Part shown: positions 29,006 to 30,087 of the stretch, one piece after another | Numbering within the stretch: position 1 is the stretch's first letter | Layout: each line of letters starts with the position of its first letter | From: Pedobacter cryophilus | GTDB taxonomy: Bacteria; Bacteroidota; Bacteroidia; Sphingobacteriales; Sphingobacteriaceae | Length of the DNA: 64,000 nt | Assembly: GCF_005116455.1 (NCBI RefSeq) | Contig: NZ_SWBP01000001.1 | Span: 62,001-126,000, forward strand | Reading direction: 5' to 3' | Notes under the pieces: model-generated | The model's input: only the letters and a program-made list of their open reading frames with translations | What the model was told of the DNA's origin: nothing | Databases searched by the model: none | Position numbers and translations under genes: made by a program

Positions 29006-29031
29006 AAAAGCCGACAATAGTCGGCTTTTTT
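29006..29031 (+). terminator. Original tRNA-Val terminator, first unit of GIY-YIG array
   Basis: AAAAGCCGAC (29006-29015), loop AATA and GTCGGCTTTT (29020-29029) form a strong hairpin with a T tail. It ends only eight bases before the start codon of the first GIY-YIG gene. Confidence 0.88.
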
Positions 29032-29038
29032 ATTGCTT

Positions 29039-29278
29039 ATGTTTTTTGTCTACATTCTATTTTCTCAATCCTTAAACAAGTATTATATCGGCTCTACTTC
29101 TGATTTAGAAGATAGATTAAGAAAACATAATTCTAATCATAAAGGTTTTACGGGAACACACTCTGATTGGATAATAAAATATAGCGAAACCTTTGAAACA
29201 AAAATTCAAGCGCTCAAAAGAGAAAAACAAATCAAAAACTGGAAAAGTAGGATTATGATTGAAAAGCTATTTGATTAG
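29039..29278 (+). CDS. GIY-YIG endonuclease domain protein, copy 1
   Basis: The product is a bare GIY-YIG domain of 79 residues from ATG 29039 (a TTG at 29033 is in frame). [17 protein letters not shown] carries the two core strands (VYI at 4-6 and YIG at 16-18). Arg26 in DRLRKHN is the expected catalytic Arg, and Glu62 in [10 protein letters not shown] the metal ligand. There is no DNA-binding extension as in I-TevI. The stop codon TAG is formed by tRNA positions 8-10 of the tRNA-like remnant that follows. The start codon is eight bases after a terminator, so expression would need readthrough. Confidence 0.85.
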
Positions 29279-29346
29279 CTCAACAGCTTCATAGCATCCC
29301 GATTTTTCAATCGGGAGGGTCACTGGTTCGACCCCAGTATCTCCCA
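29273..29346 (+). pseudogene. 5'-truncated tRNA-like remnant 1
   Basis: GATTAGCTCA matches positions 5-14 of tRNA-Val at 10719, and the T-arm and acceptor 3' strand (GGTCACTGGTTCGA, then CCCAGTATCTCCCA) are preserved. The 5' strand of the acceptor stem is lost to the GIY-YIG gene. The anticodon arm is replaced by TCCCGATT-TTTC-AATCGGGA (29297-29316), which leaves no anticodon loop. The T-loop has one change (TTCGACC for TTCGAAC). Confidence 0.8.
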
Positions 29347-29375
29347 CAAAAAGCCGACATTAGTCGGCTTTTTTT
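29347..29375 (+). terminator. Terminator of array unit 2
   Basis: AAAGCCGAC, loop ATTA and GTCGGCTTT form the hairpin, with a T run that ends about eight bases before the second GIY-YIG start. Confidence 0.85.
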
Positions 29376-29382
29376 ATTACCT

Positions 29383-29622
29383 ATGTTTTTCGTCTACATT
29401 TTATTTTCTTCATCTTTAAATAAGTATTACATCGGATCTACTTCTAACTTAGAGGAAAGATTAAGAAAACATAATTCTAATCATAAAGGATTTACTGGAG
29501 CAAACTCTGATTGGGTATTAAGATACAGCGAAACCTTTGAAACAAAAATTCAAGCACTGAAAAGAGAAAAACAAATCAAAAACTGGAAAAGTAGGATTAT
29601 GATTGAGAAACTGTTTAATTAG
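29383..29622 (+). CDS. GIY-YIG endonuclease domain protein, copy 2
   Basis: The 79-residue product keeps all GIY-YIG landmarks ([17 protein letters not shown], Arg26 in ERLRKHN, Glu62 in KREKQIKNW). Compared with copy 1 it has changes such as Ser10 for Gln and Asn22 for Asp. Nearly all differences are conservative, which suggests that protein function was under selection after duplication. Its stop codon TAG again lies in the tRNA-like sequence that follows. Confidence 0.85.
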
Positions 29623-29691
29623 ATCAGCTGGTTTAGGGCATCCCGATTTTTCAATCGGGAGGGGTCACTGGTTCGAACCCAGTATCTCCCA
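29617..29691 (+). pseudogene. 5'-truncated tRNA-like remnant 2
   Basis: It begins AATTAGATCAGCTGGTTTAG, matching tRNA positions 6 onward including the D-loop AGCTGG. It has the TCCCGATT-TTTC-AATCGGGA hairpin (29641-29660) in place of the anticodon arm, and an intact T-arm ACTGG-TTCGAAC-CCAGT and 3' acceptor ATCTCCC. It is closer to tRNA-Val in the D-arm than remnant 1 but also lacks the 5' acceptor strand. Confidence 0.8.
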
Positions 29692-29693
29692 CC

Positions 29694-29720
29694 AAAAGCC
29701 GACATTAGTCGGCTTTTTTT
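29694..29720 (+). terminator. Terminator of array unit 3
   Basis: AAAAGCCGAC, loop ATTA and GTCGGCTTTT form the hairpin, with a T run before the third GIY-YIG gene. Confidence 0.85.
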
Positions 29721-29727
29721 ATTACCT

Positions 29728-29967
29728 ATGTTTTTCGTCTACATTTTATTTTCTTCATCTTTAAATAAGTATTACATCGGATCTACTTCTAACTTAGAGG
29801 AAAGATTAAGAAAACATAATTCTAATCATAAAGGATTTACTGGAGCAAACTCTGATTGGGTATTAAGATACAGCGAAACCTTTGAAACAAAAATTCAAGC
29901 ACTGAAAAGAGAAAAAAAAATCAAAAACTGGAAAAGTAGGATTATGATTGAGAAACTGTTTAATTAG
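29728..29967 (+). CDS. GIY-YIG endonuclease domain protein, copy 3
   Basis: It is identical to copy 2 except at residue 64, where Gln is replaced by Lys (KREKKIKNW) through a single C-to-A change. Near-identity over the whole unit marks a recent tandem duplication of 345 bp. Catalytic landmarks are intact and it ends in the following tRNA-like sequence. Confidence 0.85.
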
Positions 29968-30035
29968 ATCAGCTGGTTTAGGGCATCCCGATTTTTCAAT
30001 CGGGAGGGTCACTGGTTCGAACCCAGTATCTCCCA
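29962..30035 (+). pseudogene. 5'-truncated tRNA-like remnant 3
   Basis: The sequence is the same as remnant 2 apart from one G fewer between hairpin and variable region (GGGAGGGTC for GGGAGGGGTC). The hairpin lies at 29986-30005; the T-arm and 3' acceptor strand are intact. Confidence 0.8.
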
Positions 30036-30036
30036 C

Positions 30037-30063
30037 AAAAAGCCGACAATAGTCGGCTTTTTT
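30037..30063 (+). terminator. Terminator of truncated array unit 4
   Basis: AAAGCCGAC, loop AATA and GTCGGCTTT with a T run. It has the AATA loop of unit 1, unlike units 2 and 3. On the minus strand it may also stop transcription of the convergent oxidoreductase gene. Confidence 0.85.
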
Positions 30064-30070
30064 ATTACCT

Positions 30071-30087
30071 ATGTTTTTTGTCTACAT
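30071..30087 (+). pseudogene. Start of a fourth GIY-YIG gene, truncated
   Basis: ATGTTTTTTGTCTACAT is identical to the first 17 bases of copy 1, after which similarity stops. The remainder is the 3' end of the convergent oxidoreductase gene, whose stop codon (CTA at 30082-30084 on the plus strand) lies within this remnant. Confidence 0.7.

Follow-up and report, generated by a model that had tools for sequence, protein, structure and literature searches.

The stretch of DNA analyzed here (the window) comprises 64,000 nucleotides (nt) of the Pedobacter cryophilus genome, namely positions 62,001 to 126,000 of contig NZ_SWBP01000001.1, and contains an array of three full tandem units and a truncated fourth, each of which couples a short gene for a GIY-YIG nuclease to a remnant of a transfer RNA (tRNA) gene. 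We propose that this array consists of tandem copies of a free-standing, homing-like GIY-YIG gene that is dedicated to a single tRNA gene, in this case tRNA-Val(TAC), and that would spread by cutting this gene and being copied in during repair, a reading to which we assign a probability of roughly 0.6. The initial annotation of the array had already suggested a selfish element spreading by the cutting of tRNA genes, and this remains the best-supported interpretation, with both the cutting and the spread presumed. What can be stated plainly is the arrangement itself: the nuclease gene lies on the strand of the tRNA and is, in most cases, flanked on one side by an intact tRNA and on the other by a pseudo-copy of that same tRNA.

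The array was initially described as three units of 344-345 bp, each made of a terminator, a 79-residue GIY-YIG gene and a 5'-truncated tRNA, with a truncated fourth unit, all behind the 3' part of tRNA-Val, and this description is upheld by the open reading frames (ORFs), by Tandem Repeats Finder (TRF; score 1917) and by Pfam. The units are spaced by 344 and 345 nt, lie on the forward strand and share one layout in all three full copies. Each opens with an intrinsic-terminator-like hairpin, recognizable as an inverted repeat (AAAAAGCCGACAATAGTCGGCTTTTT and near copies; 29005-29031, 29348-29374 and 29694-29721 in units 1 to 3). There follows the GIY-YIG gene, an ORF of 79 amino acids counted from the ATG, which matches Pfam PF01541 in each unit (29039-29278, E 4e-18; 29383-29622, E 1.2e-18; 29728-29967, E 2.3e-18), the match spanning residues 1-71 of the protein and positions 1-74 of the 78 in the profile. 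The unit ends with a sequence derived from tRNA-Val (29276-29347, 29620-29692 and 29965-30036) that begins at tRNA nt 8, keeps the variable loop, the T-arm and the 3' end, and is devoid of the 5' acceptor strand; the loss of this strand, reported initially, is thus confirmed, with the refinement that the anticodon arm has been replaced as well, by the palindrome TCCCGATTTTTCAATCGGGA (29297-29316, 29641-29660 and 29986-30005). The truncated unit retains the hairpin (30037-30063) and the opening codons of a fourth gene (ATG at 30071; 30071-30107), and the array ends near 30107. The GIY-YIG gene is the sole gene of each unit, with neither an integrase nor cargo, and the direct repeats at the unit junctions consist of the T-arm and the terminator. 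The tRNA-derived parts escape the standard tools: ARAGORN calls only 10719-10794 as a tRNA in the window and leaves the pseudo-tRNAs of the array uncalled, pseudo-tRNAs 1 and 3 score 22.8 and 19.7 bits, respectively, below the Rfam tRNA gathering score of 29, and for pseudo-tRNA 2 Rfam yields no tRNA match with E up to 1. The top Rfam match of any family on the array, SpF41_sRNA (30.2), also falls below its own gathering score of 52. When the array is compared with Rfam at E up to 1, no intron family is among the matches, and the group I intron endonuclease model of NCBIfam reaches 26.3 bits against a cutoff of 56.05; both results speak against a nuclease encoded in a group I intron.

The same arrangement recurs across Bacteroidota, which places it far beyond chance and rules out an ordinary tandem duplication limited to the genome of the window. 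Two collections of loci bear on this: the best 80 of 128 loci in GTDB contigs scanned by protein similarity (the contig set), and 89 loci drawn from the matches listed for 247 genomes that are at least 90% complete, 96 of which contain a match at the threshold of E 1e-9 (the phylum sample). The 89 loci include 29 supplied by the search and 60 taken in list order to a point before the list's end, and leave out neighbours in arrays already taken, the genome of the window and one hit with two stops (G165:C1:4322). In the contig set, 9 of the 80 loci are cut by a contig edge, and 63 of the 71 others have a same-strand tRNA at most 300 nt upstream, called as tRNA-Val in 58 of the 63 and located at a median distance of 45 nt; the one called as tRNA-Lys, in L091 (L and G numbers are our labels for loci and genomes), is probably a mis-called pseudo-tRNA. 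In the phylum sample, 64 loci have their tRNA at most 320 nt upstream (type A) and 9 have it directly downstream (type B), while 11 are edge-cut and 5 have no tRNA; 73 of the 78 assessable loci are tRNA-adjacent. The possibility, raised in the initial annotation, that such genes occur mostly away from tRNAs is not what either collection displays. Within 320 nt in the phylum sample, all 82 tRNAs share the strand of the nuclease gene and none is on the opposite strand, where the count is 0; in this sample the 73,392 bp farther away contain no tRNA at all, and with 94 and 0, respectively, in the contig set, where 4 tRNAs are found in the 249,280 bp farther off. By anticodon, the host tRNAs of the phylum sample belong to 14 species: Asn, Asp, Val, Met, Gly, Ala, Pro, Lys, three Ser species and two Arg species at type A loci, and one further Arg species contributed by type B. 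At least two GIY-YIG matches, mostly 323-416 nt apart, occur at 22 of the 89 loci. Of 48 type A spacers, 42 contain a terminator-like hairpin between the tRNA and the gene, and because the T-run of this hairpin ends 0-27 nt before the start of the protein match, there is little room for a promoter; the nuclease gene would be expressed by read-through from the tRNA promoter. The stop of the window ORFs, which in all three units is the TAG at tRNA nt 8-10, was correctly noted at the outset; among 126 type A loci elsewhere, 16 have it, so it is recurrent, not general, and does not define the coupling. At the type B loci L005, L018, L019 and L023, the GIY-YIG frame approaches or enters the 5' end of the intact tRNA, and its stop codon in L005 and L023 is the TAG that this tRNA itself has near nt 8-10.

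Across the gene from the intact tRNA lies, in most cases, a decayed copy of this local tRNA. In the phylum sample, the sequence at this place beats all other-identity controls (up to 25 segments from loci of other tRNA identity) in 52 of 72 loci, and among 110 GIY-YIG hits from the contig set and the genus combined, 97 match the local tRNA above the best of 20 shuffles, which is hard to reconcile with the random tRNA-like ends that the initial annotation had entertained; the local tRNA is best or equal best against tRNAs of other identity in only 61 of these 110, a comparison in which pseudo-tRNAs mis-called by ARAGORN as other identities are included. Type A pseudo-copies retain the 3' end and type B pseudo-copies the 5' end. 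A pseudo-tRNA is detectable at 107 of 122 type A loci, and the identity profile of 116 of these 122 (the remainder have tRNAs of other length) is strongly graded. Expressed as identity to the own tRNA, with the value for shuffled sequence in brackets, the 5' acceptor strand scores 0.43 (0.45), the D region 0.70 (0.41), the anticodon region 0.64 (0.37), the T-arm 0.86 (0.36) and the 3' acceptor 0.84 (0.44). In terms of 9-mers surviving in the 107 pseudo-tRNAs, the anticodon persists in 13, the D segment in 31, the T-loop in 72 and the 3' acceptor in 91; the chance expectation from other identities, out of 428, is 10 for the anticodon, 23 for D and 7 for the acceptor. The anticodon loop has thus been mostly lost, often to a TCCCG..CGGGA hairpin, and perfect CCG-bearing hairpins occur in 91 of 127 distinct downstream segments compared with 43 of 1211 control segments. 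The stem variants (TCCCGA, TTCCGA, TCCCGC and others) co-vary in a paired way, an observation to be read in the light of a search that demanded perfect stems. A palindrome sits at an insertion inside the alignment in 36 of 63 well-aligning pseudo-tRNAs, in the D-, anticodon, T- and other arms. Type B copies break or carry inserts just past the first anticodon base (L018, L019, L278, L305), at D-arm nt 21-22 (L252, L259, L262, L283, L286, L305) or, in the remaining cases, at other places. The pseudo-tRNA of L037 corresponds to tRNA-Val from about nt 8 onward; it still has the anticodon, its 3' acceptor is damaged, and this unit looks young. Maintenance of the pseudo-tRNA as a functional tRNA is unsupported as a rule, given the 5' acceptor at the shuffled level and the subthreshold Rfam scores in the window, although a few cases, such as L244 and L037, retain most of a tRNA. 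ARAGORN calls some pseudo-tRNAs (L009, L021, L036, L096) as tRNAs with a UUA, that is, stop-reading, anticodon, and the acceptor stem of the one in L009 partly pairs when inspected by eye.

Palindromes of this kind are also dispersed through the genomes. Examples such as TCCCGATAGCTATCGGGA and TCCCGATTTTTCATCGGGA are present in L185-L204 (the window's own genome, G003 and G007), and, of the 18 genomes of the genus, 17 contain the pattern TCCCGAT..ATCGGGA, the reversed control pattern scoring 0 in all 18. In L192 and L193, the palindrome is nested inside another hairpin repeat, CCCTTCGACTC..CTCAGGGTGAC. Palindrome enrichment has a median log2 of 2.52 in the 96 genomes with GIY-YIG hits and of 0.64 in the 151 scored as lacking them, which may contain other GIY types (P 1e-12). 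As proof of movement driven by the nuclease, this abundance does not suffice: it is confounded by descent, since the difference points the same way in no more than 9 of 13 families.

The nuclease clades track the identity of the adjoining tRNA more than the host family. When 111 proteins are placed on a tree and labelled by the amino acid of the adjoining tRNA, the label requires 29 changes compared with a mean of 73.0 for shuffled labels (as low in 0 of 200 shuffles), and all nine Met-type proteins fall in one clade. These 111 were taken from 187 by dropping 39 unlabelled proteins and, at random, 37 Val-type rows of the contig set (18 were kept), and L008 and L042 probably represent a single record that was entered twice. 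In the 70 rows from the phylum sample, the tRNA label (10 states) takes 20 changes, against a shuffled mean of 49.5 and a minimum of 45. The alignment behind the trees spans 84 columns and leaves many forks unresolved. New loci retrieved with single queries fit the same pattern: the Met-type query, run against 61 genomes of the order, recovered 4 genomes besides that of the window, all four with the gene beside tRNA-Met, and the Arg-type query, run against 149 genomes of the class, recovered one gene outside the genome of the window, beside a tRNA-Arg with another anticodon. The Leu-type query gave no match outside the genome of the window at the strict cut-off.

The active site of these nucleases is preserved. 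Residues Y5, Y16, G18, R26, H30 and E62, which correspond to the catalytic residues of I-TevI, are present in 147-148 of the 149 proteins that are both stop-free and labelled. Close copies of the nuclease are under purifying selection: in 47 pairs with at least 80% amino-acid identity and at least 6 differences, which include copies within one array and for which the identity cut favours low values, the ratio of nonsynonymous to synonymous substitution rates (dN/dS) ranges from 0 to 0.245, with a median of 0.08. Between copies 1 and 2 of the window there are 16 synonymous changes and 10 nonsynonymous ones (dN/dS 0.11). For all 375 pairs past the first filter, the median is 0.59, with 6 pairs at 1 or above; our reading uses the close pairs because the distant ones are near saturation.

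Within the genus, units are gained and lost at given sites. At the tRNA-Val locus, G004 has no unit, G007 has one unit that lacks the GIY-YIG gene, and G001 has eight near-identical GIY-YIG units and four GIY-less ones; a DDE transposase gene (PF13612) landed within one of the eight units (L150, 4057-5007). In G012, a row of GIY-less units, each made of the 5' half of tRNA-Val and a CCCGA..TCGGG hairpin, lies upstream of the intact tRNA-Val (L158, 1420-1650). The tRNA-Leu locus, which is recognized by a conserved gene upstream of it and was read in 7 of 17 compared loci, is empty in G006, G009 and G012, bears a 3' scar in G015 and a 5' scar in G014, and is filled in G017 (the gene with both pseudo-copies) and in G000 (the gene with the 3' pseudo-copy). 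Since this syntenic site is found empty, scarred or filled, units evidently come and go at one and the same site.

In the window, the array no longer adjoins an intact tRNA. The intact tRNA-Val(TAC), called by ARAGORN at 10719-10794 on the forward strand, and the 3' part of tRNA-Val at 28959-29004, which is 100% identical to nt 31-76 of the intact gene, probably represent the attL and attR sides, respectively, of an island with a tyrosine integrase (27573-28802, reverse strand; Pfam PF00589, PF13102 and PF17293, and a PHROG integrase match), judging from the anatomy of the region. Before this insertion, the array would have stood directly behind the intact tRNA-Val(TAC), presumably its original neighbour, from which the island later parted it. 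Thus, the half tRNA that the initial annotation placed in front of the units is indeed present, and its truncation is a by-product of the later island insertion. The array itself is no component of the island, being located outside attR, with the integrase on the other side. Besides the integrase, the island (10795-28958) contains two genes with DNA methyltransferase domains (one best matching a PglXI model), one gene that partly matches DrmA, the candidate defence gene PDC-S18 and one DUF3987/BT4734 gene, and it looks like a defence island.

Could any known system help in understanding these units? The closest tested precedent is SegB, a free-standing GIY-YIG homing endonuclease of the T-even phages that is encoded in the tRNA gene cluster (PMC13096335, PMC2988022). 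In phage T6, SegB lies beside tRNA genes and cuts inside them, favours the sequence RAWTSGAAC without strictly needing it and, together with phage recombination genes, is required for tandem amplification of tRNA-Tyr with segB (PMC13096335). By our own reading, RAWTSGAAC is the reverse complement of the tRNA T-loop GTTCSAWTY, and the T-loop so derived resembles the one repeated at the unit junctions of the window. In both cases, the nuclease gene adjoins tRNA genes, and the segment amplified in the phage is tRNA-Tyr with a C-terminally truncated segB, homologous recombination facilitating the process. The window-type genes, like Seg genes, occupy intergenic places beside the presumed target, outside introns and inteins (73 of 78 beside a tRNA). 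They differ in that SegB is phage-borne and is reported to act without a preference for tRNA isotype, whereas the window-type genes are chromosomal, encode 79 amino acids, remain faithful within a lineage to one tRNA, and are flanked by a pseudo-tRNA of the same identity, often with palindromes in its loops. That these genes work in the manner of a Seg enzyme is put forward here as a proposal.

Other parallels are more partial. The nearest solved structures by sequence, 1zg2 and 1ywl of UPF0213, are only weakly similar (phmmer E 0.013-0.015) and share with the window protein the bare GIY-YIG domain and a similar size; four distant GIY-YIG matches in the genus (L020, L027, L029, L030), in whose loci no tRNA is found, are probably UPF0213-like, to judge from their C-terminal ends. 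Integrative elements with tyrosine integrases use tRNA genes as bacterial attachment sites (attB) and restore them. As in our units, one tRNA copy is intact and the other is a displaced part, and an island of this very kind resides in the same tRNA-Val; the units differ in having neither integrase nor cargo, and their relatives are found either up- or downstream of the intact tRNA. Repetitive extragenic palindromes and their associated tyrosine transposases (REP/RAYT) offer a likeness in the short dispersed palindromes, which are over-represented in the genus, and a difference in that the units of the window contain only a GIY-YIG gene; movement of the palindromes by a GIY-YIG enzyme is a candidate idea. 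An endonuclease element in the mitochondrial atp6 gene of Allomyces reportedly duplicates the 3' end of the gene and may be an analogue. The tRNA-GIY-YIG units of Bacteroidota seem to be undescribed in the openly accessible papers that literature searches listed, judging from the titles and abstract openings of these papers.

The homing-like hypothesis implies the following chain of events. Weak read-through of the tRNA terminator would express the nuclease, which would nick or cut its cognate tRNA gene, plausibly in the anticodon loop or the T-loop. Recombinational repair from a nuclease-bearing copy, in which the gene lies between tRNA sequences, would then copy the gene in, leaving one tRNA intact and the other as a displaced half. 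Having lost both the anticodon loop and the 5' acceptor strand and gained palindromes, the displaced copy would cease to be a tRNA and perhaps also a target, and a tandem array might be built by repeated breaks or by unequal recombination between the T-arm repeats. On bacterial chromosomes, the window-type genes would thus mirror the action of SegB on phage tRNA clusters. A tentative extension is that Bacteroidota harbour a large radiation of chromosomal self-spreading nucleases, each lineage dedicated to one tRNA gene, in which the bare GIY-YIG domain might read the tRNA gene as DNA stem-loops and cut the loops; insertion would regenerate the tRNA, a palindrome in the D-, anticodon or T-loop of the displaced copy would confer immunity, and the same enzymes might move the dispersed TCCCG..CGGGA palindromes, some of them inside the loops of other hairpins. 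We regard this fuller scheme as possible rather than probable.

Several considerations weigh against the homing-like reading. Seg proteins have a DNA-binding part beyond the catalytic domain. Such a part is not found in the 79-residue window protein, where the Pfam match covers residues 1-71, and the bare catalytic domain offers no evident source of specificity. In addition, tblastn against 50,697 phage records gives no match at E 1e-3, and on these two grounds membership in the Seg family is set aside; PHROG homing-endonuclease matches are weak (E 0.0007-0.001). A phage or plasmid vehicle is likewise unsupported, with no relatives of the nuclease found in IMG/VR or in the phage records and four plasmid matches, all below 42% identity and in proteobacteria. 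An enzyme that reads only the tRNA sequence should cut the intact tRNA beside its own gene; one speculative route to immunity is a target that spans the tRNA and its native flank, a flank adjoined now only by the palindrome-bearing copy. Furthermore, 20 of the 72 pseudo-tRNAs fail to beat the best other-identity control, a strict T-arm motif is absent from 42 of 100 downstream segments, and 32 of 287 GIY-YIG hits are broken or short and were excluded from the selection test. Host family (15 states) clusters on the tree as well, requiring 33 changes in the 70 phylum rows against a shuffled mean of 47.0 and a minimum of 42, so host descent leaves its mark, and the clustering by tRNA identity could stem from long vertical descent with many losses. 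Finally, the Leu-like GIY-YIG gene of G014 (L014) lies more than 4 kb from the tRNA-Leu of the same contig. It adjoins a short tRNA-Leu-like remnant with TCCCGAT and is possibly a displaced unit.

Among the competing explanations, the one that fares best, although we consider it unlikely, is that the nuclease is a useful resident of tRNA operons that, for example, amplifies tRNA genes under attack or takes part in repair, the pseudo-tRNAs being by-products of duplication. Purifying selection among close copies and the same-strand position beside the tRNA are compatible with such a role, as is the SegB precedent, in which amplification of a tRNA gene aids phage survival of a tRNA-cutting defence. 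The patchy presence of the gene, which at the chosen threshold is detected in 96 of 247 genomes, and its absence from the tRNA-Val and tRNA-Leu loci of several genus members speak against usefulness to the host, and the eight near-identical copies at one locus and the many tRNA identities in the phylum look parasitic. An improbable option is that a GIY-YIG gene once landed at tRNA loci that often duplicate and has since been carried along, its activity playing no role. The direct repeats of T-arm and terminator at the unit junctions do suffice for unequal crossing-over, and GIY-less units exist in G007 and G001; however, passive carriage accounts neither for an intact nuclease under selection, nor for 14 tRNA species and both tRNA sides, nor for the fidelity of each lineage to one tRNA. 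It is very improbable that the system operates at the RNA level, with a toxin-like nuclease cutting the cognate tRNA and the pseudo-tRNA transcript serving as decoy or regulator, because, notwithstanding the cognate T-arm and altered anticodon arm of the pseudo-tRNAs and the stop-reading or odd anticodons that ARAGORN assigns to some, no common RNA structure survives, the type A 5' acceptor being at the shuffled level, type B copies being 5' fragments and many T-arms being broken; moreover, the described GIY-YIG enzymes compared here cut DNA. A nuclease that takes the tRNA fold as its target, also named in the initial annotation, fits the observations as well as one that spreads by cutting tRNA genes.

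If the homing-like hypothesis is correct, Bacteroidota would possess a phylum-wide guild of tiny nuclease parasites of tRNA genes, each largely loyal to one tRNA, and homing would be open to study on bacterial chromosomes instead of phages, along with the ways in which tRNA loci acquire copies and scars. This would account for many of the short GIY-YIG genes and broken tRNAs in the genomes of the phylum, and the origin of the dispersed palindromes would become testable. A large set of nucleases with distinct predicted targets would make it possible to ask how a domain of 79 residues finds its site.

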